Shown here: positions 1 to 34,979 of the stretch, in pieces | How positions within the stretch are numbered: the stretch's first letter is position 1 | Layout: each line of letters begins with the position of its first letter | IMG/VR virus record: IMGVR_UViG_3300025732_000135 | Coordinates: 1 to 35,106 of that record | Origin: a virus | DNA length: 35,106 nucleotides | Strand: one strand, 5' to 3' | Notes under the pieces: model-generated | Seen by the model: only the letters and a program-made list of their open reading frames with translations | What the model was told of the DNA's origin: nothing | The model's database searches: none | Translations under genes and position numbers: made by a program

Positions 1-89
1 TCAGACGACAACTTCTTCCTGATCGTCAGGAATCCTTCACTGTTGAGTACTTTACGCTCTACTGGAGCGCTGAGGGGTGCTTTTGCCAC
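1..89 (-). CDS. Possible 5' part of an unknown gene (partial)
   Basis: A minus-strand frame is open from a GTG at 89 to the window edge, starting VAKAPLSAPVERKVLNSEG. It begins 18 nt after the stop of the dUTPase-like gene, in keeping with the tight packing elsewhere. Support is weak: the purine-rich stretch AGGGA lies almost against the GTG instead of at a normal Shine-Dalgarno distance. An overlapping ATG at 91 opens another frame that stops after ten codons. No family is recognisable from about 29 residues. Confidence 0.3.
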   Translation of the reverse strand, partial: MAKAPLSAPVERKVLNSEGFLTIRKKLSS

Positions 90-107
90 ATCCCTAAGTA
101 TTCAGGA

Positions 108-491
108 TCAGTAGCCCTCTTGAATACGACGCAGGATCTTGTTGTGCTTTGATCGATAAGCTTTCACAAACTCATCGGCATCAATTCCAAGTAGCACAAG
201 GACTGACAGAAAGTAGTTCATCGCGTCTACAGTCTCTTCAAGGAACGCATTACGATCAAAGTCAGGAAGGTCAGTCTGCCTGTGTGGCTTTGAGTTCTTC
301 AGATGCTGGATCGCCTCGAACATTTCCTCAACACCACGTAGAGCAACGTCCTTAATCATGACCTGGTTTGACTTTATTGTTGGGTCAACAGGCCACTCAC
401 AGTACGTGCCTGGCACATTCTCACGCAAAGCAAGCATAAACTGCTCACGCAATTCAAACATCTCTTCGAGCTTATCGATTTCCGAGCTCAT
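108..491 (-). CDS. MazG/dimeric dUTPase-like nucleotide pyrophosphohydrolase
   Basis: A 127-residue, all-alpha protein of the MazG / dimeric dUTPase superfamily, which hydrolyses dUTP or related NTPs to the monophosphate and pyrophosphate in a Mg-dependent reaction. The metal-binding pattern is visible: RGVEEMFEAIQHLK (about 52-65), then a second helix with LEETVDAMNYFLSVL (about 84-98), and the C-terminal KHNKILRRIQEGY, which resembles the tail of phage dimeric dUTPases. The ATG at 491 is preferred over an upstream start because GGAG sits 7 nt before it; it overlaps the end of the preceding small gene by 20 nt. With reductase, ThyX and two glycosylases nearby, a role in keeping dUTP low and supplying dUMP to ThyX is likely. 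Exact substrate (dUTP or another NTP) is not certain. Confidence 0.75.
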   Translation of the reverse strand: MSSEIDKLEEMFELREQFMLALRENVPGTYCEWPVDPTIKSNQVMIKDVALRGVEEMFEAIQHLKNSKPHRQTDLPDFDRNAFLEETVDAMNYFLSVLVLLGIDADEFVKAYRSKHNKILRRIQEGY

Positions 492-678
492 TTGCGGTCT
501 CCAGCATGCGATTAATGCTATCGTCAAGACCCTTTAGGAAATCCTGGTCGGGATCGATCACATCACCGTTCAAGGTGAAACGCATGAGACGAAGATTGTC
601 GGTCACGTCCGTTCCAGTCAGGATGGCCATCTGGATGAGCTTTGCAATTGAGGCAATTGAATTGTCAGAAAGTCGCAT
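472..678 (-). CDS. Small hypothetical protein (68 aa)
   Basis: A short protein starting MRLSDNSIASIAKLIQ and ending LETANELGNR. The ATG at 678 follows a good Shine-Dalgarno (GAAGGAGAAGAC then ATG). The frame stays open upstream to 909, but that extension lies antiphase inside the glycosylase gene and has shadow-like composition. It is mildly acidic, probably helical, with no cysteines, signal peptide or membrane segment. It lies between the Fpg/Nei-like gene (40-nt gap) and the dUTPase-like gene (20-nt overlap), so it is co-transcribed with repair and nucleotide genes. I do not recognise the family. Confidence 0.7.
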   Translation of the reverse strand: MRLSDNSIASIAKLIQMAILTGTDVTDNLRLMRFTLNGDVIDPDQDFLKGLDDSINRMLETANELGNR

Positions 679-718
679 GTCTTCTCCTTCTTGAATAGTA
701 ACCCGTGAATATCCGTGT

Positions 719-1510
719 TTATAGCTGAACTCGTGGAACCCACCATGTCGTCCGTCCGTCCTTCGTCTCCTGGCAGACGACCTCATCACCATTTGGATCT
801 CGCTTTCGACCGTAGACCAGCATTGAGTGCTTGCCCTCCTCGCCATCGAATCCCTTGTATGTGAGGATTGTTGAACCGCCGTTGAGATAGGCAGTTCGGA
901 TGACATCACTCACGGATTCACTAAGAAGCGTAAGCTGCTCATCTGTTGAATCCCCTACCTTTCGCCAAGGGCTCAGCTTTGCCAACCAAAGCGAGTCAGC
1001 CTTCAGGTAATTTCCGACACCGGAGACAACGCCCTGGTTCATGAGAACCTCTGCTAGGGTTGCATCAGGATGCTTGCGAAGCCTCTCGATGAATGTACTG
1101 GGCTTCACATTCTCGTTGAGCATGTCAGGACCAAGGGATGCCAACTTCAGCTTCAGGTCCTTTCGATTACAGAACTTCACAGTTCCAAAGTTGCGAGGAT
1201 CATTGAAGTAGAGGTCACCCACAGATGTCTCAAACTTCACTCTAGCATGACGAGGAACATTCGACCAGGCTCCGGACATTCCAAGTGTGTTGAAGATGAC
1301 AACATCAGCGTTCTTGAAAGTCCAGTAGATGAACTTGCCCTTGCAACCAACGCTCTCAACAGTTAGGGGAAACTGTGTGCTTGTAAGACCCTCAATCGGC
1401 TTCTTAGTGTAGCGACCGGACAACGGAGTTACTGATTGCAGTAGGTCACCCTCGGTAAGAAAGTTGTTGATGGAACGAACAAAGTTAGTGACTTCCGGAC
1501 CCTCAGGCAT
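719..1510 (-). CDS. Fpg/Nei family DNA glycosylase, zincless-finger type
   Basis: A 263-residue bifunctional DNA glycosylase/AP lyase of the formamidopyrimidine-DNA glycosylase / endonuclease VIII family, which removes oxidised bases and nicks the abasic site. It starts MPEGPEV, so the catalytic Pro2 (Schiff base) and Glu3 are present. A Lys in CKGKF (about 57-59) matches the conserved beta-strand lysine. The helix-two-turn-helix segment is MNQGVVSGVGNYLKA (about 157-171), including the DNA-contacting Asn168. The C-terminal hairpin keeps the Arg (DGRTTWWVPRVQL, Arg253), but the four zinc cysteines of bacterial Fpg/Nei are missing, as in the zincless fingers of NEIL1, plant FPG and mimivirus Nei. 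The ATG has GGAG 7 nt upstream and overlaps the HhH glycosylase stop by 8 nt, so both repair enzymes should be translated together. Confidence 0.9.
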   Translation of the reverse strand: MPEGPEVTNFVRSINNFLTEGDLLQSVTPLSGRYTKKPIEGLTSTQFPLTVESVGCKGKFIYWTFKNADVVIFNTLGMSGAWSNVPRHARVKFETSVGDLYFNDPRNFGTVKFCNRKDLKLKLASLGPDMLNENVKPSTFIERLRKHPDATLAEVLMNQGVVSGVGNYLKADSLWLAKLSPWRKVGDSTDEQLTLLSESVSDVIRTAYLNGGSTILTYKGFDGEEGKHSMLVYGRKRDPNGDEVVCQETKDGRTTWWVPRVQL

Positions 1511-1934
1511 GTACAGTCTCCTCTCGATACAGGTTCTTCAGATGATCGTGATAAGCGTTCAAGGCATGGTCCTTGGGGTGAACATTACGCCAATCACCAA
1601 GGATGAAGATTCGATAGGCGTCCGAGGCATACTTGCCGACACCATGAAGCTCATTCACATCCTTCCACTGTGCGGAATGGAATTGTGCAGACATTCGCTT
1701 CAGTGTCTGAGTTCGCTTCTTCTGCATCCCAAGAGTCTTGATGGTCTCCTCGAGGTCGGCATCATTTGCCTGTGATAGGGCAAGAGCGTTAGGCCATTTC
1801 TGGAACAGAACTTCAACGACAGGTTCCATCTGCTTCCTTGTCGTCAGATTAAGACACAGGCAACAGACGAGTATCTTCCACTCGTCTGGCCAGTACTTTT
1901 CCTGGATGAGACCGAACTTGGGGGGATGCCACAC
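1503..1934 (-). CDS. MBD4-like HhH-GPD DNA glycosylase
   Basis: A small (143 aa) HhH-GPD superfamily glycosylase most like the catalytic domain of vertebrate MBD4, which excises thymine or uracil from mispairs with guanine. Correspondences with remembered MBD4: WHPPKFGLIQE at the N-terminus, CLNLTTRKQMEPV after the first helices, the hairpin-helix-hairpin ELHGVGKYASDAYRIF, and WRNVHPKDHALNAYHD, where the Asp in HPKDH (about residue 122) aligns with the MBD4 catalytic Asp. There is no Fe-S cysteine cluster, which argues against EndoIII/MutY. I prefer the GTG at 1934, because GGAGG lies 5 nt before it; the ATG at 1946 has no Shine-Dalgarno and would put that GGAGG inside the gene. It overlaps the Fpg/Nei-like gene by 8 nt. 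Activity on U:G or T:G is inference. Confidence 0.8.
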   Translation of the reverse strand: MWHPPKFGLIQEKYWPDEWKILVCCLCLNLTTRKQMEPVVEVLFQKWPNALALSQANDADLEETIKTLGMQKKRTQTLKRMSAQFHSAQWKDVNELHGVGKYASDAYRIFILGDWRNVHPKDHALNAYHDHLKNLYREETVHA

Positions 1935-1980
1935 GTTTGCCTCCATATTGGAATGGTAATAGCAAACAATGAGTTTACAA

Positions 1981-2760
1981 TCAGTAAGGAGTTCCGTGTC
2001 TCACGTGTCCCATGATTTCGTCAATGATTCCCGCAGTCTCATCGTGGTCACTTACGCTGTATGCACGATCATGATTCTTGAGGGCTTCATAGATCTCATA
2101 GTCGTTTCCATTTGCCTGACACCTGTCTCCCACAAACCAGACTGTTTCATCTGGAAAGTGATTGAGAGCGTATGTCTTGTCCCAGCCTACCGGGTAGATA
2201 TCGAATGAGGTAGATCCACCAAGCTTTGCAACAAGCGGAGTTCTAATCGTCATGAGACGAAGCTTCAACAGGGAAAGGATGCCAAGTCTGAAGTCATTTC
2301 TTGCATCGAAACTCTCAAACCAGGTCCTGCTTGAGCGATCTGCTTCCCTGCCAATTGGACACCAGTTGACCATTGAGCTCCGTGAGGAAACAAAGTTTCC
2401 AGTCAGGGGAAGGTCTCGAACGTTCTCCATGACCTCACGCTGCATGGTATTGAGAATGAGGTGAAGGTCACGCCACTCCTGTCCCAGGTGATTCATCATA
2501 GACTTGGGGACCGCCTGGGCCTGCCAGTGACCATTGACAAGTTTCCAGTGTTCAGTGCCATTGCACGGCAATGCTTCCACGCCATGCTCAAATGCCTCAA
2601 GCGGAACCTGCTCCTTGACATAGTCGAGTGCAGAACCTGTCACAATTCCAACCCTTGCAAAGGCAGAGAGTTCAGTAAGCTTCTGTAAGTTCTTTTGAGT
2701 GATTCCCTGACGCGGTGGTGTCAAAGTTCCATCAAGATCAAAGAGTACAACGTCTCGCAT
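1981..2760 (-). CDS. Phosphomannomutase-like HAD-family protein
   Basis: A 259-residue HAD-superfamily protein resembling eukaryotic-type alpha-phosphomannomutase (PMM1/PMM2), which interconverts mannose-6-phosphate and mannose-1-phosphate for GDP-mannose synthesis. Visible landmarks in family order: LFDLDGTLTPPRQ (nucleophile Asp8, acid/base Asp10), VGIVTGSALDYV (38-48), LPCNGTE (64-70), a cap segment with VNWCPIGREAD (131-141), FDIYPVGWDKTYAL (186-199), and FVGDRCQANGNDYEIY (209-224) with metal-binding residues. Length is close to the usual 245-260. The start codon overlaps the thyX stop by one base (TAATG), giving translational coupling. A sugar-nucleotide enzyme among nucleotide genes may serve glycosylation of virion, DNA or host surface. 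A generic sugar-phosphate phosphatase is the main alternative. Confidence 0.8.
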   Translation of the reverse strand: MRDVVLFDLDGTLTPPRQGITQKNLQKLTELSAFARVGIVTGSALDYVKEQVPLEAFEHGVEALPCNGTEHWKLVNGHWQAQAVPKSMMNHLGQEWRDLHLILNTMQREVMENVRDLPLTGNFVSSRSSMVNWCPIGREADRSSRTWFESFDARNDFRLGILSLLKLRLMTIRTPLVAKLGGSTSFDIYPVGWDKTYALNHFPDETVWFVGDRCQANGNDYEIYEALKNHDRAYSVSDHDETAGIIDEIMGHVRHGTPY

Positions 2761-3392
2761 TAGTATCCAAATGCCTCAATCGTATGTTTGAAAGGATTGC
2801 CGTCAATGTTCCTAACGAGATCCAGCATCTTCTCTGCAAGTTCCCTAACTTCGGTCTGGGCATCAGGCTTCATGCGCAGGCCGAGAAAGTGATTGAAAGA
2901 TCGCCAGTTGAACATGACGTCCATTGTAATCTGATTCCCATAGGGTAGGTAGAACCTGGCAGACTCCTTGGCACGCTTACGATCCATTCCGCTGTCGACA
3001 AGCCGTTGAAGGGTTTCGTGATAACGCATGAGTGCGTCCTCCATGAAAGCAACATACTTTGCCTTCTCAGTGAGGGGCCAGTCCTGGGGGACATAGTATT
3101 TGTCGTCCTTAAGTTCTTTATAGCGTGCAGATTCACCGTTGATCGAGACACCAATACGGTGTTTCAAGAGATGAATATGGACACTCGTGTCAACAGTTAC
3201 AAGAAAGTGAAGGCTTGACTTCTCAAAAACGGTGTGATGTCCCTGTTCAGCAAGCATCTTGAGAAGTTGCGAGATCCTATTTTTCTTTTCATCGTTCAAA
3301 TCACGAGAGGTCGATGTCCAAGCTGACAATGCGTGTGTTTCATCTGAGCCATACCATCCGATGAGCTCTACTTTATTCTCCTGACACGACAT
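2760..3392 (-). CDS. thyX: Flavin-dependent thymidylate synthase ThyX
   Basis: A 210-residue ThyX, which methylates dUMP to dTMP using methylene-tetrahydrofolate, FAD and NADPH. The signature is at 77-91 (KHRIGVSINGESARY), a variant of the family RHRxxSxNxxSxRY motif; Ser88 is the expected catalytic serine and Arg90 contacts dUMP. YLPYGNQITM (148-157) and NWRSFNHFLGLR (162-173) complete the nucleotide and FAD sites. Length is normal and the gene looks intact. Start: GGAGG sits 7 nt before the ATG at 3392, which lies inside the last codons of the homing endonuclease gene (20-nt overlap). A diverged 5' copy of the same gene lies upstream at 4168-4332, so this copy was probably brought in with the endonuclease. 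Confidence 0.95.
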   Translation of the reverse strand: MSCQENKVELIGWYGSDETHALSAWTSTSRDLNDEKKNRISQLLKMLAEQGHHTVFEKSSLHFLVTVDTSVHIHLLKHRIGVSINGESARYKELKDDKYYVPQDWPLTEKAKYVAFMEDALMRYHETLQRLVDSGMDRKRAKESARFYLPYGNQITMDVMFNWRSFNHFLGLRMKPDAQTEVRELAEKMLDLVRNIDGNPFKHTIEAFGY

Positions 3393-4128
3393 GTTTTATC
3401 CTCCACCCGTTGATAGTTCTGTCTTTGTTCACAATTCTTTTGATTGAAGAACCTGATATCTTGAACCTGTGATTTGCAAGAATCATGCACAATCGATTCA
3501 CAGATTCAGCAGTCACGGTTTCTCCGGTTGCCTCATGGGTTGCAATGCAAGATTTTGCATTGTGTGTAATCTCCCCTTTGGCATGTCCTTTGCATCGAGG
3601 ATCTCCACTCATGCCCTTGTTCCACCTTTCTTTTTCGAGCATGTTTTTCATTCTTGCTCTTTTGTGCTCTTCATCCTCGACTTTCCCATAATTCGGATTT
3701 TTGTCACCTCTTCTGGACTCTGACATCATACTTCTCCATGCCATTCCAGCCTCGGATGCAAGCCACTCTTTGCGTTTTTCACCCATCTTCTTTCGAGTTT
3801 CATCAGTGCCAGTCCAACCTTCTCCACCATCAGTGAGATTACAAAGAGACTCACGAAACTCTGCTATTAGAGACTTTTCACGTGCATATGCATCATTCTC
3901 TTCTTCGAATCTCTCTACTATCTCTACAAGAGGTTCGTGACCACAGTCCCAGATCTTTGAGATCAATCTGAGTAGGTGAAAATTATGAGAACCGCAATTT
4001 GTCGGCTTGCCTCTTTTTACCCATGTTCTTGCACGATACAAGTGAACCTTTGATCTGTTCCCTTGCCCCTTTCCGATGTAGAAAACCCTTTCATTTGTAG
4101 GATCAACGTATCTGTAGACATACCACAC
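3373..4128 (-). CDS. GIY-YIG homing endonuclease with NUMOD-like repeats
   Basis: A free-standing homing endonuclease of the GIY-YIG type (T4 Seg / I-TevI relatives), about 251 residues. The N-terminus carries the GIY-YIG core as WYVYRYVDP...FYIGKGQGNR; a Glu in the EKSLIAEF region is a candidate metal ligand. The middle has NUMOD3-like segments (GTDETRKKMGEKRKE and GDKNPNYGK), and the C-terminus has a NUMOD1/helix-turn-helix-like DNA-binding unit ending near RTINGWRI. The GTG at 4128 is preferred: AGGAGGTGATT puts GGAGG 5 nt before it, whereas the GTG at 4134 is part of that Shine-Dalgarno. The gene is more AT-rich than its neighbours, a sign of recent transfer. It sits exactly between a truncated thyX copy and the intact thyX, whose start it overlaps. 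Confidence 0.9.
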   Translation of the reverse strand: MWYVYRYVDPTNERVFYIGKGQGNRSKVHLYRARTWVKRGKPTNCGSHNFHLLRLISKIWDCGHEPLVEIVERFEEENDAYAREKSLIAEFRESLCNLTDGGEGWTGTDETRKKMGEKRKEWLASEAGMAWRSMMSESRRGDKNPNYGKVEDEEHKRARMKNMLEKERWNKGMSGDPRCKGHAKGEITHNAKSCIATHEATGETVTAESVNRLCMILANHRFKISGSSIKRIVNKDRTINGWRIKHVVSGE

Positions 4129-4130
4129 AA

Positions 4131-4157
4131 TCACCTCCTCTAATAGGTATTAGGTGA
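4131..4157 (-). promoter_or_regulatory. Stem-loop over the homing endonuclease ribosome binding site
   Basis: On the minus strand UCACC (4157-4153) pairs with GGUGA (4135-4131), and inside it UAAUA (4152-4148) pairs with UAUUA (4145-4141), with a GAGGA bulge at 4140-4136. Part of the Shine-Dalgarno of the GIY-YIG gene is thus inside the outer helix. T4 I-TevI is known to have its ribosome binding site hidden by a hairpin in early transcripts; this could act in a similar way. The inner loop is tight and the pairing was judged by eye. Confidence 0.35.
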
Positions 4158-4167
4158 ATGTGTGTTG

Positions 4168-4332
4168 TTATGTCTCATGTCCATGTTCAGCTAGCATTCT
4201 CAGAAGGGAAGGAATTCTCATTGCCTTCTCCTCTGTGAGGTCCCGGCTCGTGCTTGTCCACGCCGATAGAGCATGGACCTCGTCCGAACCGTACCAACCC
4301 ACTAATTCTACCGTGTTGTCCTGACAGGGCAT
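4168..4332 (-). pseudogene. Truncated 5' remnant of a second thyX
   Basis: Starting at an ATG with AGGA 6 nt upstream (GGATCAGAAATG), this 54-codon frame matches residues 1-54 of the intact ThyX downstream: about 40 of 54 residues are identical, including GWYGSDE and HALSAWTSTSRDL. Homology ends at LAEHGH, after which two codons and a stop follow; the intact gene continues HTVFEKS. Codon choices differ at many synonymous sites, so this is a copy from a different lineage and not a fresh duplication. It lacks the ThyX signature and all catalytic residues. It is entered by the homing endonuclease gene 40 nt downstream, consistent with resident thyX having been cut off and replaced. The frame may still be translated as a short peptide. 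Confidence 0.85.
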
Positions 4333-4537
4333 TTCTGATCCTGTGTCTAGCATGTTTGTCCCAAACTATCTCGAAACCCCACTGGAGGATTGTGAGTGTG
4401 GAACCTGTCAAAAGAACTATACCTGCAGAGTCAGCAACGTTACTTGTGAAGAAGAACGCTACGGCAAAGCTGTAGCACATGGAGAACAACCTCCATGCTA
4501 CAACCTTGCTTAGCAGTTCTATCTTTGCAGGCTTCAC
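4187..4537 (-). CDS. DUF2061-like small membrane protein with a run-on C-terminus
   Basis: A 116-residue ORF whose first 60 or so residues look like a DUF2061 membrane protein: KVVAWRLFSMCYSFAVAFFFT, then a second hydrophobic stretch with VLLTGSTLTILQWGFEIVWDKH, i.e. two probable transmembrane helices with charged ends. The GTG start at 4537 directly follows the ClpP-like stop (TAAGTG), so coupled translation is likely; only a weak TGGA lies upstream. From about residue 68 the frame runs out of phase through the thyX remnant, giving a Gly/Arg/His-rich tail that does not look selected. In the matching frame the downstream endonuclease gene stops six codons after the equivalent point (SGE then stop), so the tail is probably an artefact of the thyX rearrangement. 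Function of DUF2061 is unknown. Confidence 0.6.
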   Translation of the reverse strand: MKPAKIELLSKVVAWRLFSMCYSFAVAFFFTSNVADSAGIVLLTGSTLTILQWGFEIVWDKHARHRIRNALSGQHGRISGLVRFGRGPCSIGVDKHEPGPHRGEGNENSFPSENAS

Positions 4538-5140
4538 TTAGTCCAGAATGTAGTTGAGGTCGATCTTGCAGGTGAGAGTTGGGATACGAAGCTCATTCGC
4601 AAGGTTGTGACCCTTTGCATCGTTGGCATCCAAGTACCAGTCGGCATGTCCACGCTCATGAACCATCTTCAGGAAGTAGTCCGAGGGCTTGCCACAGTTA
4701 CGTGCCATCATCTCGTAGACCTTCTTGTTGAGGCGCTCGACCTCCTTCGCGTCGGCCTTGATCTCCTCGACCTTACCCCAGGCTCCACTGGAGACGTCGT
4801 GGATCATGAGAGTGGCATCTGGGTCCATGTAGCGCTTGCCCTCGGCACCAAAGCTGAAGAGGATTGCCCCACAGCTCATAGCCTTGCCCTCAATGATGGT
4901 CGCGACTGGAACCCGTGAGGCCTTGATCGCAGCGATCATTGCCATGAGAGAGTAGACCTGACCACCGTATGAGTCGATGACGATGGGAATCACCGTCTGG
5001 CCGGTGTTCTGTGCACGGCTCATTGCATCCGTGAACTCCTTGGCCGACTCCTCGTCGAACTTGTTGACACGGATGATGATGGGGTCGACCCGGAGCTCGA
5101 CTGCCTTGATGTGATGAGAAACGTCTGCGATGAAGTTCAT
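4538..5140 (-). CDS. ClpP-like serine protease
   Basis: A 200-residue protein of the ClpP/crotonase-fold protease family. The catalytic triad can be placed by spacing against E. coli ClpP: Ser89 in EGKAMSCGAIL, His114 in LMIHDVSSG and Asp167 in HADWYL; Ser to His is 25 residues, as in ClpP. DSYGGQV (56-62) replaces the usual NSPGG oxyanion strand. The frame stays open to 5302, overlapping the reductase by 110 nt, but that extension is low-complexity (RRAASPARRAASP) and comes from the reductase zinc-ribbon codons. The ATG at 5140 has GGAG 6 nt upstream and is preferred. In phages ClpP-like proteins can act as prohead proteases; here it lies among nucleotide genes, far from the visible structural genes, so its target is open. 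Confidence 0.8.
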   Translation of the reverse strand: MNFIADVSHHIKAVELRVDPIIIRVNKFDEESAKEFTDAMSRAQNTGQTVIPIVIDSYGGQVYSLMAMIAAIKASRVPVATIIEGKAMSCGAILFSFGAEGKRYMDPDATLMIHDVSSGAWGKVEEIKADAKEVERLNKKVYEMMARNCGKPSDYFLKMVHERGHADWYLDANDAKGHNLANELRIPTLTCKIDLNYILD

Positions 5141-5192: not shown

Positions 5193-7682
5193 TCACTTGC
5201 ACTTGGAGAAGCCGCACGCCTTGCAGGAGAGGCAGCCCTCCTGGTAGACGAGCTCGGAATTACCACACTCAGGGCATCCCTTTTCGGTTGACTTTGTACC
5301 ATCCTTGATGTACCCCTTGAGAACTCTTGCGATTACCCTGGCGAATGAGAACATGTCACTGTTCTTGTCCTTCTGTAGTTGCTCTACGACGTAGTGGAGA
5401 GGGACCTCGTGACGAAGCGCAAGCGATACTGTCCTCGAGAAGGCTCCCTGTGTGGGATTGTCGAAGAGGTTGACGACGTCCTTGAAGACGAGGTTCTCAT
5501 CGTCACCGACCGGAACGAGGAGATTGTATGTTGCAACTCCATCACGCTTACCATTTTTAACCAACGTGCCTGACTTGTATCGCTTGGGAATCTCAATGTT
5601 CTCAGGAATTCCACAGAACACCTCATAGGGCTTTCCTTCATTGAGACCGACAAGGACGAGCCAGGAATCGGTGTTTTCACCGTTGCGGACGTTGGCACGA
5701 TGTATGTCACAGTGAAGAGACTTGGGGCGCTTTGGTGTAAGACGACCGTCGTCTGCCTTCTTCTCCTTCTTCGGCTCATCGTTGGAGACAAGTACGCCTG
5801 TCCTGCATCCGTCACGGTAGACTGTGAATCCCTTGCAGCCTGTCTTCCAGGCCTTCAGGTAGACGTTGTTGACAGTCTCCTTTGTTGCAGAGTTGGGAAG
5901 GTTACATGTCTTGGAGATGGAGTGGTCGATCCACTGCTGTGCAGCAGCCTGGATGTCGACTGACTTCTCCCAATCGATGTCATTGGCAGTGCCACCCCAG
6001 TATGGGCTCTCCTGTGGATCAGTCTTGCCGGTGATGTCCATCCACTTCTTGAACCAGTGATGATAGACAGTGTACTCCTGCCACTTGTCGCCCATCGGAT
6101 CCACGAAATCGACCCGGGATGTGAGGTCTCCCTGAGTGATCTTACGACGGCGCTTGTACGAGAGAAGGAAGGCGGGCTCAATACCGGATGTCGTGCGAGT
6201 GAGACATGAAACAGAACCGACCGGTGCAGTTGTAGTGAGCGCGATATTTCGGCGTCCAGTGCTCTTCCACATGTCGTGGTATGGACCATTGCATGCGTTG
6301 ATCACCTTCTTCAGGTATGTGTGGTTCTTCTCCTTCTCGAAGTCAAAGACCGGGAAGGCACCACGCTCCTTGGCCATGATGAGTGAAGAACGGTGAGCAC
6401 CCACAGCAAGAGCCTTGTAGATCTCCTCAGTCACAGTGACAGAGCAATCACTTCCATACTTGATGTTCATTGCAGCCAGGGCATCACCAAGACCCGTGAC
6501 ACCAAGGCCAGTCCTTCGACCATTGAGGCCCGCAGAGCGAATCTTTTCCCAAAGGTCCCTCTCAATCTTCTTGACATGGAACGGCTGTGGGTCCCTATCA
6601 ATCTTCTCAAGAATCCGATCGACACACTCTACCTCAAGATCGACAAGATCATCCATCAGGCGCTGGGCCTTCATGACCACATCATTGAATCGACCGAAGT
6701 CGAAGGTTGGATTGTCGCTGAATGGATTGTTGACGAATGAGGTGAGATTGACAACCATCAGTCGGCAGGAGTCGTACGGGCTTAGTGGAATCTCGCCACA
6801 GGGATTCGTCGAGATCGTCTTGTAGCCGACGTCACGGTAGCAGTCTACGATTCCCTCGCGGGTAATTGTATCCCAGAAGAGAGCACCAGGCTCAGCCGAG
6901 GACCACGCAGCGTCCACGAACTTCTCCCAGATCTGTCTCGCATCGACCATCTTGACGATCTCAGCGTCCTCAGGATGGGCCTCCACAGGCCAGCGAAGAC
7001 AGAAGCCGGTGTTGTTTTCCACGGCCTGCATGAACTCATCGGTGAATCGGATGGAGATGTTGGCACCGGTCACCTTCTTCAGGTCTCTCTTGATGTCGAT
7101 GAAAGACTCGATCTCAGGGTGACGACAGTCGATGGTGAGCATGAGAGCACCACGACGTCCACCCTGCGCAACCTCACGAGTGGAGTTGGAGAACCTCTCC
7201 ATGAAGACGCCGATACCATCGGTGGTTCGGGCAGCGTTGGTGGTTGGCTGACCCTTTGGTCGAATGGTAGAGACATCGAATCCGACTCCGCCACGTCTCT
7301 TCATGATCTGGACCTGCTCCTGGTCAGTGAAGAGAATGCCACCGTATGAATCATGAGGCTGTTCCACAACGAAACAGTTTGACAGGCTCTGTAGTTGGTA
7401 GTAGTTTCCTATACCAGACATCGGAGAACCCTGAGGGACTACGTCCCTGAAGCCCTTCAGAAGCTCATAGATCTCATCTTCACCCATTGCATTGGGATAC
7501 TTCGCTTCGATACGAGCGAACTCCCTCGCAAGACGACGATGCATCTGGTTGGGATTGGTCTCCAAGAGGTCATCATTGGAGTCGCGAAGCGCATACTTCA
7601 TGAAAACATCGGGAGCAAGTTCATCTCCCTCGAAGTATGTCGAGGTCTCCCTCAAAGCAATCTGCCTTGTTACGTCATTCAT
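5193..7682 (-). CDS. nrdJ: Class II (B12-dependent) ribonucleoside reductase
   Basis: An 829-residue adenosylcobalamin-dependent ribonucleotide reductase that makes deoxyribonucleotides without oxygen or a small subunit. Key residues: Cys103 (SLSNCFVV) and Cys306 (DSCRLMV) as the redox pair, and NPCGE (293-297) with thiyl Cys295 and Glu297. GGVGFDVS, GRRGALMLTIDCRHP and a phosphate-binding loop at APVGSVSC fit the class II fold. The C-terminus ends in a CxxC...CxxC ribbon (CPECG, CKACG, SKCK) like that of bacterial NrdJ, where the terminal cysteines re-reduce the active site. The ATG at 7682 overlaps the helicase stop (TGATG); a GTG one codon upstream is also possible. No activase or small subunit is needed, which fits the lack of nrdB nearby. 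Confidence 0.95.
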   Translation of the reverse strand: MNDVTRQIALRETSTYFEGDELAPDVFMKYALRDSNDDLLETNPNQMHRRLAREFARIEAKYPNAMGEDEIYELLKGFRDVVPQGSPMSGIGNYYQLQSLSNCFVVEQPHDSYGGILFTDQEQVQIMKRRGGVGFDVSTIRPKGQPTTNAARTTDGIGVFMERFSNSTREVAQGGRRGALMLTIDCRHPEIESFIDIKRDLKKVTGANISIRFTDEFMQAVENNTGFCLRWPVEAHPEDAEIVKMVDARQIWEKFVDAAWSSAEPGALFWDTITREGIVDCYRDVGYKTISTNPCGEIPLSPYDSCRLMVVNLTSFVNNPFSDNPTFDFGRFNDVVMKAQRLMDDLVDLEVECVDRILEKIDRDPQPFHVKKIERDLWEKIRSAGLNGRRTGLGVTGLGDALAAMNIKYGSDCSVTVTEEIYKALAVGAHRSSLIMAKERGAFPVFDFEKEKNHTYLKKVINACNGPYHDMWKSTGRRNIALTTTAPVGSVSCLTRTTSGIEPAFLLSYKRRRKITQGDLTSRVDFVDPMGDKWQEYTVYHHWFKKWMDITGKTDPQESPYWGGTANDIDWEKSVDIQAAAQQWIDHSISKTCNLPNSATKETVNNVYLKAWKTGCKGFTVYRDGCRTGVLVSNDEPKKEKKADDGRLTPKRPKSLHCDIHRANVRNGENTDSWLVLVGLNEGKPYEVFCGIPENIEIPKRYKSGTLVKNGKRDGVATYNLLVPVGDDENLVFKDVVNLFDNPTQGAFSRTVSLALRHEVPLHYVVEQLQKDKNSDMFSFARVIARVLKGYIKDGTKSTEKGCPECGNSELVYQEGCLSCKACGFSKCK

Positions 7683-28514: not shown

Positions 28515-31469
28515 TTAGATCATTGCCCCAGCATTTGTCACAACGAAGTCGAGAGATACGAACTCGATGGAACGGGTCGGCTGGACGAAGATCTTTCCGC
28601 GGATTGTGTTGTTTTCCACGTCTGCCTGCGTCGTCGTAGTGGTGTCAATCTTCACCTTGTAACGATCCACACCGGACTGGGCCTGGATCTGCTTGAGGAT
28701 GGGATCGACCAGTGACGAGAACCTTGCGAGCGTGGACTCACGGTTCGGCTCGAAGAGGATGGTATTTGCAACCGCCCTCACCCTACGCCTAATCTCAATG
28801 AGAAGGCGCCTGACATTCACTCTGTCAAGTGCAGACTGCCTTGCAAGCATTGTCTTCTGTCCATAAACGACAGGTGACACGGAACCGGGCACGGTTGTGA
28901 CCGGGTTGATGTTGCTTGAGTACAGGGTGTCCAGGTTGACCCTATTGAGCTTCACCTGTGCCTCAATGACATCACTGAGTGCGCCACGTGTAAAGCCTGC
29001 TGGAGCGAACCATGGGTATGCAACCTTGTCGTTCAGTGCAAAGGCACCAAGGACCGAGACTGATGGGGGAATGACAAGGTTTGCACCTGTGCCCGGATCA
29101 GTCATCACAAGGTCAGGATAGTAGGCTGCAGCGAATGATGTATCCATCACCCTATTTGCAAAGGCCGTTGCCGTCTGTGTCACGGATGGAACCTCAGTCG
29201 AGCCCGTTATCACCGCACCATTGACGTCCTTTTGCTGGATATCCATGATGTAGAGTGCATCGAACCTTGACTCAACGGCCGACACTGCGTAGTCTGTGAT
29301 GCCTGGCTCCCTGATTCCCGGTATTGCGAGGATCTGGATGTCGACATCAGAAGTCTCAGCGAGGATGTCTATTGCCTTCCTGTAGGAAGCGACTGTCGGT
29401 CCATTTGAGCCGAACTGGTTCGTTGAGTAAAGCATCTCACGAACAGCGGCAGTATCATTCAGCGCAGACTTGTTCTGGTCAAAGATGTTTACACCATCGA
29501 ATCCACCATGCACAGGGAATGTGAACTTCACAAACCTACGTGATGTGCTGTCTGCAAGGTCACTCACGGCAAGGAACCTGTATCCTGCGCTGGGGCCACC
29601 TGTACGAAGGTACGAAGCCGATGTCCAAAGGTTTGGATTGGGTAGACCTGTAGAGGATGCCGTGATTACCTGAATCCTCTCGATCGTGAACGCATTATTG
29701 TTGAACACGTCGGCATCGTAGATTGCGCCATTTGCATTGGGTGTACCGTTGTTGTCACCAACCCATGCATTGGCAAAGTCCGTGTGGTACTTGGGGAAGT
29801 ACTTGACATGAGACTCAACAGTATAATCGGCATAAGAGTTCTTGTTCGGCTCTGTGATGCTGTCATTTGCCTCAAACTGCAATCCCCAGTGAAGGTATGG
29901 AGCAGTCCTCTTGCCACTTCCAACTCCGATAGATACCGACTTGCGGAAAGGAACTGGTGGCTGGACGGCCTTTAGGAGTTCTGCGCTGTTTGAACCGACA
30001 GTGCCAAGGAAACCGCTGCCCGATGTGACCAAGTGCCAGAGTCCACGGAAACCTGCTGGGAGTGCAGATGCCGGTACTTCCTTGTTCATCACATCATCTG
30101 CAATCTCAACTCTGATGTAGCTTGACACGTTGGGGTAGAGGCCTTCCATTGCAAGCTTCTGAGATCCAACGGCACGATCAAAGTCAAAGTAGACCTTCAT
30201 GTCACCGATCACCTTGCCGAAGAATCTAGGATTGTTCGGATTGATGCTCAGCCCAACAAAGCTCTCAAGAACGACCTGATTGTCATCGGTGTCACCGAAC
30301 TCACGAACGAATAGGTCGAATGTGCCATACTCGGAAGTTGGGTCAGTGGAAGGCGTAATGTTCCTTATTGAGATCTTGACCTTTGTGTTGGCGTAAGCGC
30401 CGTCATCACGTGCGTGAACCTTGAAGAGGTTGACACCTGTTGGGTCACCAAAGCGCTGGGAGATTACCCATGGTGAGAAGGCTGTCTGGAACCTGTCCTC
30501 AAAGCCCTCATAGTTGGGAACTACAGCAGTTCCTGAGTTGTGGCTCTCAGCGGACTTTAGTACGAATGCAATTTCCTGCTTTGTGCTATTGCCTGCCCAG
30601 GGTCCCATATTCAGGTTTGAACCTGTTGGAACTGCATACTGTGAGTACACATCGTATGCCGTATAGAGATAGTGACCTGCCTCTTCAATGCGAGTCGGAT
30701 CAGTGTTGAAGAGGGTGGCAAAGTAGTTTGCAGCACTTGGATCGAAGCTTGCAGAAACGGTGTTTCCGAAAGCATCGTTTGCCTTGTGTCCTGAGAGGAA
30801 GAGGACGAACTCCTGCTTACCAGACGAGATGTCAAGGGTTCCAGTTGTGAAGCCAACCTTGTTGGCAGGTGCACTTGAGATGCTCAGGTTGTTGGTGTAA
30901 CCAGCCTCAGCAACTGATGCCGAGAGTGTTGGTATGACACCAGATGGCACCATGAGGACGCCCCTGATGATAGGGGCTGCCTTGGCTGAGGCCTGGATTC
31001 CTGCATCAGACAGATAGGTCGAACCTGCCGATTCGGACATGAAGCAGCCGAGGAAGTAAGTCCTTCCAGGCGTATCGTGACCCCATGAGTAAGCATTGGA
31101 GCCAATGTCGCCAGTTGACTGCACAATTTTGTCACCGACCACAAAACCTGAGTTTGTGACCTTTCCTGCATTGATGCCGCCCGCGGTCCTTGCCTTGCCA
31201 TCTCCTACACCAAGCACCCTGAGGTAAGTTCCTGCGTTGGCATTCTTTAGCCACTCGTAAAGTGCTAGTGGTCCAAACTGGCCACTTGCAGAATCGAACT
31301 TATTCACAAAGTCCTGGTAGTTTGCAACCGTCACGGGGACGAATGCAGGTCCACGGTTCGCGGTGCCGATCACACCGGCTGGCGTTCCGGTGGGCGTCAC
31401 TGATGTCGGTCCGGAGAGGTCAATCTCCCTTGTGCCTACACCAGCGCTCTTGAAAGTGAGTTCAGCCAT
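28515..31469 (-). CDS. Tail sheath protein 2 (gp18-like)
   Basis: A 984-residue contractile tail sheath protein. The N-terminal region has GTREIDLSGP, TPAGVIGTANRGPAFVPVTV and FGPLALYEWLKNA, and the C-terminus has the core sheath fold: SALDRVNVRRLLIEIRRRVRAV, ILFEPN, VENNTIRGKIFVQPTRSIEF and FVVTNAGAMI. It is longer than T4 gp18 (659), from added surface domains in the middle. It is a paralogue of the sheath encoded upstream (27-nt gap) and lacks that protein's inserted domain. AGGAG is 9 nt before the ATG. Sheath subunits hexamerise around the tube and contract on infection; two paralogues could build a mixed sheath or be used in different parts of the tail. Confidence 0.92.
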   Translation of the reverse strand: MAELTFKSAGVGTREIDLSGPTSVTPTGTPAGVIGTANRGPAFVPVTVANYQDFVNKFDSASGQFGPLALYEWLKNANAGTYLRVLGVGDGKARTAGGINAGKVTNSGFVVGDKIVQSTGDIGSNAYSWGHDTPGRTYFLGCFMSESAGSTYLSDAGIQASAKAAPIIRGVLMVPSGVIPTLSASVAEAGYTNNLSISSAPANKVGFTTGTLDISSGKQEFVLFLSGHKANDAFGNTVSASFDPSAANYFATLFNTDPTRIEEAGHYLYTAYDVYSQYAVPTGSNLNMGPWAGNSTKQEIAFVLKSAESHNSGTAVVPNYEGFEDRFQTAFSPWVISQRFGDPTGVNLFKVHARDDGAYANTKVKISIRNITPSTDPTSEYGTFDLFVREFGDTDDNQVVLESFVGLSINPNNPRFFGKVIGDMKVYFDFDRAVGSQKLAMEGLYPNVSSYIRVEIADDVMNKEVPASALPAGFRGLWHLVTSGSGFLGTVGSNSAELLKAVQPPVPFRKSVSIGVGSGKRTAPYLHWGLQFEANDSITEPNKNSYADYTVESHVKYFPKYHTDFANAWVGDNNGTPNANGAIYDADVFNNNAFTIERIQVITASSTGLPNPNLWTSASYLRTGGPSAGYRFLAVSDLADSTSRRFVKFTFPVHGGFDGVNIFDQNKSALNDTAAVREMLYSTNQFGSNGPTVASYRKAIDILAETSDVDIQILAIPGIREPGITDYAVSAVESRFDALYIMDIQQKDVNGAVITGSTEVPSVTQTATAFANRVMDTSFAAAYYPDLVMTDPGTGANLVIPPSVSVLGAFALNDKVAYPWFAPAGFTRGALSDVIEAQVKLNRVNLDTLYSSNINPVTTVPGSVSPVVYGQKTMLARQSALDRVNVRRLLIEIRRRVRAVANTILFEPNRESTLARFSSLVDPILKQIQAQSGVDRYKVKIDTTTTTQADVENNTIRGKIFVQPTRSIEFVSLDFVVTNAGAMI

Positions 31470-31496: not shown

Positions 31497-34400
31497 TCAC
31501 TCAAACTGCACACCGGAGTTCGTTATGACGAAGTCTATTGAGATGAACTCAACAGCCCTGGTCGGAACGACCACGATCCTGCCGTTGACCCTGTTGTTTT
31601 CAACATCGGTCTGCGTATTGTTTGTATCATCCATGATCACGCGGAACTTCTCGATACCGGCCTGTGCCTGGATGAGGGCTAGCCTCGGTGTTACCTGATT
31701 GACGAACCTTGCCCTGGTGGCGGGTGTGTTCTGTTCAAACAGGATGCCGTTGGCAATATCTGTCACTGTGCGCTTCACTTCGATCATCAGGCGGCGGACA
31801 TTCACTCTGTCAAGTGCGGACTTGGCAAGCTGAAGTGTCTTCTGTCCGAAGATGACGAAACCACCCGTTGGGAAGACAGCGATCGGATTGATCCTGCCTG
31901 AGTAGAGTGTGTCCCTGTCACCTGAGTTCAGGCGAACCTTGACGTTTGCAACGAAGTCCAGGGCACCACGATTGAAGCCAGCCGGCGCGAACCATGGGTA
32001 CGTGACCTTATCGTTGAATGCCATTGCACCGAGAGCGGCAACCGAGGAAGGAACTATGACCCTCCTGCCGTTGACTTCATCGTTGACCTGGACGTCTGGG
32101 AAGTACGTTGCGGCGTAATTGTTGTCAATTGCCCTGCCGATGAATGTCTCTGATGTGTACCTGACACTTGGCTTTGTCGTAGTTCCATCCCAAAGCCTGT
32201 AGCCATTATCATCGTAAGAGGGAATGTCCATGACGTACATTGCCAAGCTATTGTTGCGAGCCTTGTCGGCGGCATAGTTCGATACAAGTGCGTCCCTTAT
32301 GCCTGGGATTGCAAACACATTGACGTTGGTCGTGAACTCATCGGTCATAATGTCAACCGCAGCCTTGTAAGAAGCAACGATGTTATTGTCATTTCCGATG
32401 CCTGCGGCATTTGTCTGGAGACCGGCCTCCACAGCACCGAGCGCCTTTCCGTTCCCACCGTTGGCAGTCGATGAGGTCTCAGTTGAAGATGCCCTGTCAT
32501 TCATCAACCTGTTGTCCTTGTCGAGGATGTTCAGGCCGTCGAAGCCGCCGTAGAAGATGTTGGTGAACTTCATGTAGGGTGTGAACCTATTGAAGACCAC
32601 CGAGGACGAGTGGATGAGCGTTGCCATCGTTACGCGGTTGGTGGCGCTGCCGTAGACTATCCTGTAGTCTGAGGCGTCGTTGATTCCATCGCGTACGTAA
32701 GCGGCTTCCCTCATGTGTGCATCGGAAGTTCCTGTGACGTCTGTGAACGTCTGGTTCGAGAGGGCGACCCTTGCAAGCGTGAACTTGTTTGCATTGAGCA
32801 CGTCCGCTGCGGATCCTGTCACAAGGACATCCTGCTGTGCAATACCCTGGAACTTGGTGTATGCCGCCACGATGGGGTTCTGCATCACGCCGAGGTTTGC
32901 GTTGAGAATGGCATTTGAAACCGATCCTGTGAGGGGTACGGATGTTCCCATCACGCCCCAGTAGAACCTTGAATCTGCCCTCTCATTGACACCAGGTGAA
33001 CCGATATTTCCGTCCGTGGTGCTCATCTCACCCCTCGTCACCTTGAATCGAAGCGGAAGGGGTGGAATGAGTGAACGCTTCATGTCAGTGGTTGCACCCC
33101 TTCCATGCAGCCTTGTTCCAGCAACGAACGTCTTGCCGTCGAAGGTGAGGTTACCACCACCATCGAAGAGCGAGTCGTTAGTCTTCAGGGCAGGAATACC
33201 GTGGAAGCCGAAGGGGAGAGCATCAGATGGGACCTCACCTGTCTCGACAGCCGGGTTCATGACCACCCTGATGCTTGGGCTGCGGTTTGGATACTTTCCT
33301 GTGATAACCAGCCTACGCTCGTCACCATCATCAGCGTCAAAGTTGTAATAGACCTTCTTGTCACCAATCACCCTGGCGATGTAATTGTCTGCCTTTGGAT
33401 TGAGTGAGAGGCCTGGGTAGGCTTCTACAATCTCCGCCTGGATGTCGTCATCGAGGAAACGTCTTACCTGGATGTCAAAGGTTCCGTATGGGTTTGACTT
33501 GTCAGTTGAAGCATTGACATTGGCAACAGAGATCTTTACCTTGTCATTGCCCCATGCACCGTCAGAGATCGTCTCGAAGTGGAAGAGATCGTACTCCATC
33601 TTGCCGAATGGCTGGGAGATGAAGGCTGTGGTGCGAGGTGTGGTGTAGCGCGTGTCGTACCTACCAAACTTGGTATTGAAAGCACCGGAACCCGAGAGGA
33701 TACCGATCGTTTCTGTGGTACCACTCTTCCTGACAGGTGAGACCTCCTGGTCGACTGAGAAGTCGAGGTAGAGGAGGTGCTTCTTCTCGGAGAAGAGGTC
33801 AGGATCCGTGTTAAGGACCTTTGAGATGTAAGCATCGTCATTTGGATCGAGGGATGCCGTGAGAATCCTGACGCCTACGAAGCCATCAGTGACGTTTGTA
33901 GCAAAGTCCGCATTTGAAGACGAGATTACAATCTTGAACTTTCTTGATGTCGATGGGCTTGATGAATCCTCATCAGAGATGTAAGCGGTGTCATCCATCG
34001 TGGAACTATAAGTTCCTGCAAATGGCATCACCTGCACACGAGATCCTGAGGCTGCAAATGTTACGGCTCTCACAAGGTCAACCTGTGTGGATCCACCATA
34101 TGACACATCAAAGCTTGGGTTGTCAGTGAAGATAGGCAGGCCGTTCTCTGCACTTGGAGATGATGCTGAGATGTAGTGCTGGGCAACTATGAACTGGACA
34201 GAACTGTCGGTCCATGGATGTCCAACATTGTCACCACCAGAGAAGTTAGTCTTTGTGAACACGCTTGAAGCAAGTGCACTAACTGGTGTGATTGTTGTAT
34301 TGCCTGCATCACCTGCGGTTGACTGTGTAAGCGTGAGGACACCCAGTGCAATTGCAACAGTGATTTTCCCATTGTGGCCTGTGGCACCTTCGATTGCATT

Positions 34401-34979
34401 CTTGGTTTCTGTCGCTATTGTTGTAACAGATGACAATCCCTGGACTTGAACGACAATTCGGTTAGAACCCAGATCTGTGCCTGTGGGATTTGTACCTGTG
34501 TCATCAAACGCGTAATTGCGAGTCGTGCCATCTGTCGAAACGATCGTATATTCGCCTGTGTTATAATCGGCGGGTGTTACAGAAACATGTGTTAGTGATG
34601 CAACGGCTGCATTGGCAGGATCTGTTGGATTACCGGGCGTGATCTTGAAGCCTGCATTCTTGACAGTGCCATTAGCCAAAGTGTCGGCTATGTCTGCCAG
34701 TGAGCTGTTTGCTCCGGCCCCAAGTGTACGAATGTAGGTGAGTGCTCCCTTGTGCTTGAGCCACTCGCGTGCCGCATATGGTGCTGCGATGTCAGGGTCG
34801 AGGCCTCCGAACTTTGATGTGAAGTCCGTGAAGTTGCCCACCGTGACGGGCACGAATGCCGGACCCTTCTCAGCGGGACCGATGAGTCCAGCAGGGGTTC
34901 CCTGCGGTCCGGCTGCGCCGGCAATAAGCTCGATCTCCTGCTCGAAGAATCCCGGCGAGAGGAATGTCTGTTCGGCCAT
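31497..34979 (-). CDS. Tail sheath protein 1 (gp18-like) with an inserted domain
   Basis: An 1160-residue tail sheath protein sharing the whole plan of sheath 2: QEIELIAG, TPAGLIGPAEKGPAFVPVTV, YAAREWLKHKGALTYIRTLG at the N-terminus and SALDRVNVRRLMIEVKRTV, ILFEQN, VENNRVNGRIVVVPTRAVEF and FVITNSGVQF at the C-terminus. Residues about 115-250 (nt 34637-34230) have no counterpart in sheath 2; they form a Thr/Gly/Ala-rich beta domain (TIVSTDGTTRNYAFDD, ITVAIALGVLTLTQSTAGDA) of a kind seen as decorations on phage tail proteins. CAGGAGATTCTAATG gives a good start. The first of the visible structural genes, it is probably transcribed at high level together with sheath 2 and tube. Confidence 0.92.
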   Translation of the reverse strand: MAEQTFLSPGFFEQEIELIAGAAGPQGTPAGLIGPAEKGPAFVPVTVGNFTDFTSKFGGLDPDIAAPYAAREWLKHKGALTYIRTLGAGANSSLADIADTLANGTVKNAGFKITPGNPTDPANAAVASLTHVSVTPADYNTGEYTIVSTDGTTRNYAFDDTGTNPTGTDLGSNRIVVQVQGLSSVTTIATETKNAIEGATGHNGKITVAIALGVLTLTQSTAGDAGNTTITPVSALASSVFTKTNFSGGDNVGHPWTDSSVQFIVAQHYISASSPSAENGLPIFTDNPSFDVSYGGSTQVDLVRAVTFAASGSRVQVMPFAGTYSSTMDDTAYISDEDSSSPSTSRKFKIVISSSNADFATNVTDGFVGVRILTASLDPNDDAYISKVLNTDPDLFSEKKHLLYLDFSVDQEVSPVRKSGTTETIGILSGSGAFNTKFGRYDTRYTTPRTTAFISQPFGKMEYDLFHFETISDGAWGNDKVKISVANVNASTDKSNPYGTFDIQVRRFLDDDIQAEIVEAYPGLSLNPKADNYIARVIGDKKVYYNFDADDGDERRLVITGKYPNRSPSIRVVMNPAVETGEVPSDALPFGFHGIPALKTNDSLFDGGGNLTFDGKTFVAGTRLHGRGATTDMKRSLIPPLPLRFKVTRGEMSTTDGNIGSPGVNERADSRFYWGVMGTSVPLTGSVSNAILNANLGVMQNPIVAAYTKFQGIAQQDVLVTGSAADVLNANKFTLARVALSNQTFTDVTGTSDAHMREAAYVRDGINDASDYRIVYGSATNRVTMATLIHSSSVVFNRFTPYMKFTNIFYGGFDGLNILDKDNRLMNDRASSTETSSTANGGNGKALGAVEAGLQTNAAGIGNDNNIVASYKAAVDIMTDEFTTNVNVFAIPGIRDALVSNYAADKARNNSLAMYVMDIPSYDDNGYRLWDGTTTKPSVRYTSETFIGRAIDNNYAATYFPDVQVNDEVNGRRVIVPSSVAALGAMAFNDKVTYPWFAPAGFNRGALDFVANVKVRLNSGDRDTLYSGRINPIAVFPTGGFVIFGQKTLQLAKSALDRVNVRRLMIEVKRTVTDIANGILFEQNTPATRARFVNQVTPRLALIQAQAGIEKFRVIMDDTNNTQTDVENNRVNGRIVVVPTRAVEFISIDFVITNSGVQFE

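Follow-up and report, generated by a model that had tools for sequence, protein, structure and literature searches.

A free-standing GIY-YIG homing endonuclease gene that probably travels with a foreign copy of the thyX start it cuts off

Endonucleases inside essential genes have usually been described together with an intron or an intein, and rarely with a gene that works in two pieces. In the window, by which we mean the whole 35,106-base virus record to which all coordinates below refer, the minus strand carries in order a ribonucleotide reductase gene, a ClpP-like protease gene, a DUF2061 gene, a thyX stub, an endonuclease gene and a complete thyX (Table 1). How could such a row have arisen? 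Our analysis makes it likely that a free-standing GIY-YIG homing endonuclease gene brings along, as it moves, a foreign version of the thyX segment that its enzyme cuts off. That the resident thyX was split and displaced when this gene entered together with a thyX start of foreign origin is, from comparison of sequences, well supported.

Table 1. Features of the thyX locus and its surroundings in the window
Feature	Position	Strand	Remarks
DUF2061 gene, resident left flank	4335..4537	-	PF09834
thyX stub, resident GHE ('E-type') allele	4332-4168	-	54 codons plus TAA; ATG at 4332
Predicted hairpin, from stub end through GGAGG and GTG start of the endonuclease gene	4110..4175	-	
GIY-YIG homing endonuclease gene, 253 aa	4134-3373	-	LEM-3-like GIY-YIG plus NUMOD3
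Complete thyX, 210 aa	3392-2760	-	PF02511 3.5e-37; start of the GHHTV ('H-type') lineage
HAD/phosphomannomutase-like gene	1981..2760	-	PF03332
HhH-GPD-like gene	1503..1946	-	PF00730, E 2.4e-5, just under Pfam's cut-off
fpg-like gene	719..1510	-	identity to L004 returns here

An earlier sequence-only reading of this locus had described a remnant of the first 54 thyX codons, a GIY-YIG gene and a complete thyX in succession, and all three are present, the stub with its ATG and TAA at the expected places. The interval it gave, 3237-4332, covers the stub and the endonuclease gene and ends within the intact thyX, whose last position is 2760; its gap of 40 nt between stub and endonuclease gene is really 33 nt if that gene starts with the GTG at 4134, or 39 nt if it starts with the in-frame one at 4128. 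The two 5' ends were said to share about 40 of 54 residues and to differ at many synonymous sites. We measured 74.07% identity over the 54 residues (40/54), with third-position identities of 23% (codons 1-21), 19% (22-42) and 50% (43-54). As had also been noted, homology ends directly before the endonuclease gene, the match of the stub to uninterrupted thyX stopping at GHET/TAA, and both copies have the same kind of upstream junction, in that the 3' end of the endonuclease gene overlaps the thyX ATG (3392) just as the DUF2061 gene does in relatives. The DUF2061 frame itself meets its first stop at 4187 (4187-4537) and so shares 146 nt with the stub, read in a different frame; L007, L008 and L018 show a similar overlap. 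The layout is not an assembly artefact, since it recurs in another contig, L003, which is 99.86% identical across 8,392 nt, and with diverged sequence in L007.

How common is this layout? Two thyX scans, taking the best 80 of 160 and the best 80 of 242 loci, yielded 159 loci with 115 distinct thyX, where "endonuclease-free" denotes a locus without a tblastn match to the window and L007 enzymes, the only two queries. When all 159 were checked, an upstream second thyX start together with an endonuclease match occurred only in the window's twin (L003, the same as L342) and in L007 (the same as L329), that is, in 2 of the 115 distinct thyX, 108 of which have at least 1.2 kb of upstream sequence. 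No donor possessing both the endonuclease and a closely related H-type thyX turned up among the thyX loci of these scans (best 80 of 160 and best 80 of 242). In the same scans (best 80 of 160 and best 80 of 242), the 115 thyX divide into 42 GHE, 22 GHH.V and 51 other alleles. The stub side reads GHE, as GHET in the window stub and AENGHETPFEKSS in many relatives, while the intact side reads AEQGHHTVFEKSS, or ADQ in L007. Only 2 of the 22 GHH.V sequences belong to endonuclease carriers; the other 20 have no endonuclease match in the locus, and the H-type alone is therefore not the mark of the endonuclease. In solved ThyX chains, the part that aligns with the region of the insertion point is conserved (GHFSVLEHASVSF, HGSPFEHNSMTF).

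Uninterrupted, endonuclease-free alleles at the insertion site do exist, in L004 and L014. L004, whose uninterrupted thyX continues the remnant sequence as the displacement hypothesis had anticipated for a relative of this kind, matches the window at 94.3% (nucleotides) over 3,305 nt left of thyX, at 98-100% in the 100-nt bins from 4600 to 4301, and at 89.7% between its thyX start and the stub; further on, in fpg, identity is 87.1% over the gene and 92.5% over 1512..1. We rejected the possibility that the L004 thyX was restored when a stub and an intact copy recombined: L004 is E-type from codon 1 past codon 54 and remains GHE-type beyond the insertion point, and therefore does not represent simple excision. 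In L007, among the loci compared, the stub is closest to L014 (89.7%), as are the flanks (left, 77.6% over 2,304 nt; right, 77.3% over 1,660 nt), and the intact thyX start is closest to L005 (86.5%).

Trees of the thyX start (codons 1-52, 156 columns) in 19-row and 43-row versions bear out the claim that stub and intact copy come from different lineages. In the 43-row tree, whose bootstrap had not settled and in which long branches lead to the window intact copy, L343 and L355, a six-row clade unites the intact copies of the window and L007 with L005, L006, L343 and L355, and both stubs lie among the other 37 rows, the split having support 100/99. There the window stub groups with L004 and L377 at 88/92 and with L004 alone at 78/83; in the 19-row tree it groups with L004 at 96/89, and the L007 stub with L014 at 80/94. 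Over these 156 columns, joining a stub to its own intact copy is rejected by the AU test for the window (p 0.0105 with 19 rows, 0.0016 with 43) and for L007 (p 1e-6 and 8e-6). Because the stubs match endonuclease-free relatives and the intact copies form another clade, the endonuclease gene would have arrived with a foreign thyX start, breaking the resident gene.

The intact thyX of the window is itself a chimera, since its third-position identity to L004 differs by segment: 32/105 in codons 1-105, 52/63 in codons 106-168 and 17/42 in codons 169-210 (Fisher 3e-11; of 820 pairs, no other is as uneven). Its start is foreign and codons 106-168 are L004-like, that is, resident-like. The proposal that an incoming endonuclease plus a foreign thyX replaced the resident gene thus stands for the resident-type stub and the foreign start, and has to be amended for the intact copy, which is not wholly foreign. 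With 19 sequences, codons 54-105 group the window, L005, L006 and L007 at 95/91; the 19-row tree of codons 1-52 did not recover this group and did not reject it either (AU p 0.36). Downstream, the HAD-like gene is 71% identical to that of L004 over 674 nt aligned, and the L004 locus contains nothing that matches the HhH gene; both genes probably lie inside the exchanged tract, which may extend in patches to fpg. The tract beyond thyX may belong to the same exchange event as the thyX start.

Some features of the surrounding loci deserve mention on their own account. By eye, a second, different GIY-YIG-like ORF stands directly before fpg in L007 (6120-6839) and L010 (6750-7454), where the identity between the window and L004 returns. 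In L006, L007 and L010 an interruption of about 0.9-1.3 kb divides the ribonucleotide reductase match near residue 280-296, and in L018 the match starts at residue 296, after a frame that by eye resembles an intein end. An extra ORF of about 340 residues, by eye glutamine synthetase-like, precedes DUF2061 in L005, L006, L010, L018 and L020, and there is none at that place in the window. In L359 a copy of the last 77 codons of thyX (5195-5425) lies 1.6 kb downstream from the whole gene, preceded by an ORF of 513 residues that is in part seemingly repeated further on; without a match to the window or L007 enzymes, this looks like a tandem repeat. Elsewhere in the window, neighbouring large proteins (28515-31469 and 31497-34979) each match tail sheath families.

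Might the stub be older than the displacement picture implies? Two stubs grouped together are rejected by the AU test (p 0.005 in both the 19-row and the 43-row trees), which fits separate insertions and also one old insertion that followed its flanks. Such an insertion in the common ancestor of the window and L007, with the stub inherited and the endonuclease-free relatives having swapped in intact alleles, seems to us unlikely, though it is the alternative that fares best. The window and L007 endonucleases are only 62% identical in amino acids, a divergence equal to that of some flank genes (ClpP, 60%), and stubs following their own flanks would give the same stub tree. On the other side, an old insertion needs many losses, since stub and endonuclease occur together so rarely (2 of 115 distinct thyX in the best 80 of 160 and best 80 of 242 loci), and L004, being E-type from codon 1 to beyond the insertion point, would have lost the element by allele replacement rather than by excision. 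A two-copy layout of old standing without any endonuclease-free allele, which the sequence-only reading had named as evidence against itself, is not what we see, such alleles being present, even if an old insertion retains a small share of the probability. The stub and L004 differ at 17 positions over 159 nt, 12 of them third positions of thyX; the L007 stub and L014 also differ at 17, 13 of them third positions. Given this bias most of the divergence of the stubs arose under ThyX constraint, so that the stubs are either young or still constrained. That the stub is kept for the overlapping DUF2061 frame is unsupported: 15 of the 17 differences from L004 change an amino acid in that frame, and the differences concentrate at thyX third positions.

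The enzyme has the composition of a homing endonuclease, a GIY-YIG nuclease domain with a DNA-binding module (PF22945, 9e-11; PF07460 NUMOD3, 4e-7; phrog_314 homing endonuclease, 4e-15). Against cultured phages the window enzyme gave no match at E 1e-5. A predicted hairpin covers its GGAGG and start codon (-24.7 kcal/mol, z -4.4, none of 200 shuffles as low), and at the same place L007 has a different predicted hairpin (-16.9, z -2.9, 1 of 200 shuffles as low); in T4, endonuclease genes are held back by hairpins of such kind.

Is thyX the only gene treated in this way? A scan for upstream pieces that match a downstream piece covered 79 endonuclease loci, drawn from the best 80 of 170, and found such matches in 15; of these 12 resemble gene-end remnants, two in thyX, six in nrdB (five near-identical), three in a lysin gene and one in an ORF of L092. 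The names nrdB and lysin are our presumed identities, assigned by eye, and remnant translations were examined in four loci (L092, L114, L146 and L151). Matches in L147, L148 and L150, which are short and on the minus strand or lie inside a long ORF, were not counted as remnants. For nrdB and lysin the whole gene precedes the endonuclease ORF, and that ORF closes with another copy of approximately the gene's last 15-25 residues; in L092, around 3001-3910, an ORF beside a GIY-YIG gene has a mirror-image remnant of this sort. The enzymes linked to lysin and nrdB have only distant matches in cultured phages, about 30-44% identical among the matches listed. The displacement inferred for thyX is supported in the window, and it is not confined to it: the layout recurs in L007 and, as a mirror image, in nrdB, lysin and L092.

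The site in nrdB changes with the endonuclease. Across 82 contigs, and with a site motif picked after the tails had been seen, APQQ[TG]Q before I.SY occurs in 8, all 8 with a forward endonuclease match; the other 74 read ETE or ESE, and among the 65 of them with at least 700 nt downstream none has a forward match (9 are too short), with an opposite-strand match in 2 of the 65 and 1 of the 9. NrdB bodies are identical in five of the eight changed-site contigs. On the NrdB body tree, in which L142 is a very long branch, the eight need four state changes, two of them forced by well-supported branches, and a single clade of eight is rejected (p 4e-11). Remnants are present in L146 and the five identical-body contigs; none was seen in two endonuclease contigs, L142 and L178, the latter with a broken endonuclease ORF. 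In L146 remnant and intact tail are 87% identical, and L169, the nearest endonuclease-free nrdB, is 84% identical to the remnant and 79% to the intact tail. As L169 is only slightly closer to the remnant, the evidence in nrdB is the changed site and not the tree. Among the lysins, remnant-type tails are found in L250 (82% nt, body 96%, no endonuclease match, DRIKHINHALAVLT in it as in the remnant) and L254 (83%), and replacement-type tails (72-77%) in L251, L252, L253 and others. Remnant types in lysin and nrdB read EITSY and intact tails QITSY. L252, which has a replacement-type tail without an endonuclease match, does not fit neatly with a drive.

These cases bear on whether ordinary mosaic recombination at a conserved spot, with the endonuclease gene a passenger driving nothing, could account for the locus. 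Phage genomes recombine freely, and the window thyX is mosaic past the insertion point too; but the layout occurs in two phages, arrangements of the same kind accompany related endonucleases in nrdB, lysin and L092, and the nrdB site is changed in every endonuclease contig and in none of the 65 others, so that we give this explanation little chance. Far less credible still is the idea that thyX was duplicated in tandem within one phage, after which an endonuclease gene was inserted and one copy decayed; the two copies do adjoin, but the AU rejections above hold in both phages and each stub is closest, among the loci compared, to the thyX of another phage. We attach as little weight to an intron or spliced arrangement with the stub as alternative 5' exon: the stub retains a reading frame and start, but an Rfam scan of 2500-5000 gave no family match up to E 1, in agreement with the initial impression that no intron is evident, no ribozyme was found between two exons as in a group I intron of the T4 td type, and the thyX that follows is a complete gene, beginning at a start of its own.

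How would the element spread? We suggest that in a mixed infection the enzyme would cut a GHE-type thyX at about codon 53-54, that the left broken end would prime copying from the donor, so that the endonuclease gene and the diverged GHHTV-type start enter, and that the copied strand would rejoin resident DNA near codon 105 and once more farther along. The product would keep an intact thyX frame, lose the cut site and leave the resident start behind as a stub. Cleavage, its site, the resistance of the new copy and the repair pathway are what we infer here; the mosaic thyX would be functional and keep thymidylate synthase working. The proposal leans on a resident-type stub, a foreign intact start, a mosaic thyX, the second instance in L007 and the mirror-image cases, all seen directly. 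More broadly, we are inclined, with some reserve, to propose that phages carry natural home-and-rescue drives, in which intron-free endonucleases split thyX, nrdB and lysin genes near one end, bring a diverged, cut-proof end and leave a remnant, with a 5' form in thyX, a 3' form in nrdB and lysin, and a site in nrdB that changes with the endonuclease. If so, an element bearing its own replacement gene end would be another solution for endonucleases in essential genes. It would parallel, in nature, the rescue drives that have been engineered, and would be among the causes of mosaicism in phage genes. For testing cleavage directly, the genomes studied here supply target, remnant and replacement alleles that correspond to one another.

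Phage endonucleases are known in free-standing, intron- or intein-bound and gene-splitting forms, going by the available parts of PMC2988022, PMC10448857, PMC12724721 and PMC3653736, and the last, in its available part, states that no duplicated RNR genes have been identified in phage genomes. The titles and abstract openings of the phage literature among the matches listed show no such layout; subscription papers fell mostly outside the search, which makes this weak evidence of absence. Like T4 Seg and Mob, which show co-conversion of flanks and marker exclusion, the window enzyme is encoded by a free-standing gene (GIY-YIG or HNH in T4) beside phage genes; unlike it, Seg and Mob lie between genes, neither a severed piece nor a replacement copy being described, and the available text never mentions duplicated pieces or remnants (PMC2988022, in part). 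Phage homing endonuclease islands and endonuclease-linked allele exchange likewise place nuclease genes at exchange boundaries near or within essential genes, but the stub-plus-replacement layout is not described for them in what is available of PMC10448857. The HomeR drive, engineered with Cas9 in Drosophila, cleaves an essential gene and supplies the severed portion in re-coded form as a rescue, with 22 or 27 re-coded residues downstream of the cut site, close to the size of the nrdB tails; the thyX element is natural and found in phages (PMC7968924, in part). In Tremella fuciformis mtDNA, N-terminal duplications are carried by mobile introns, and there too the mobile element has been proposed to bring along an N-terminal copy of the host gene that is of foreign origin; those elements are predicted introns, whereas no intron was found at the thyX locus (PMC7315562, in part). 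The closest parallel may be the mobile ORF elements of Glomus atp6, atp9, cox2 and nad3 and of Allomyces macrogynus atp6, which carry an endonuclease gene and a foreign gene end that replaces the cut-off one, the native end persisting as a remnant that groups with relatives as the replacement does not (PMC3630166, in part). The same is found here, since the thyX stubs group with relatives and the lost piece has a foreign replacement within a complete gene. The fungal elements replace the 3' end, use LAGLIDADG or, in atp9, GIY-YIG enzymes and reside in mitochondria (PMC3630166, in part); the thyX element sits in a phage and replaces the 5' end, and it is nrdB and lysin that have the 3' form. 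Thus, endonuclease elements with a foreign gene end being already known from fungal mitochondria, the phage thyX case may be regarded as a variant that carries a 5' end.
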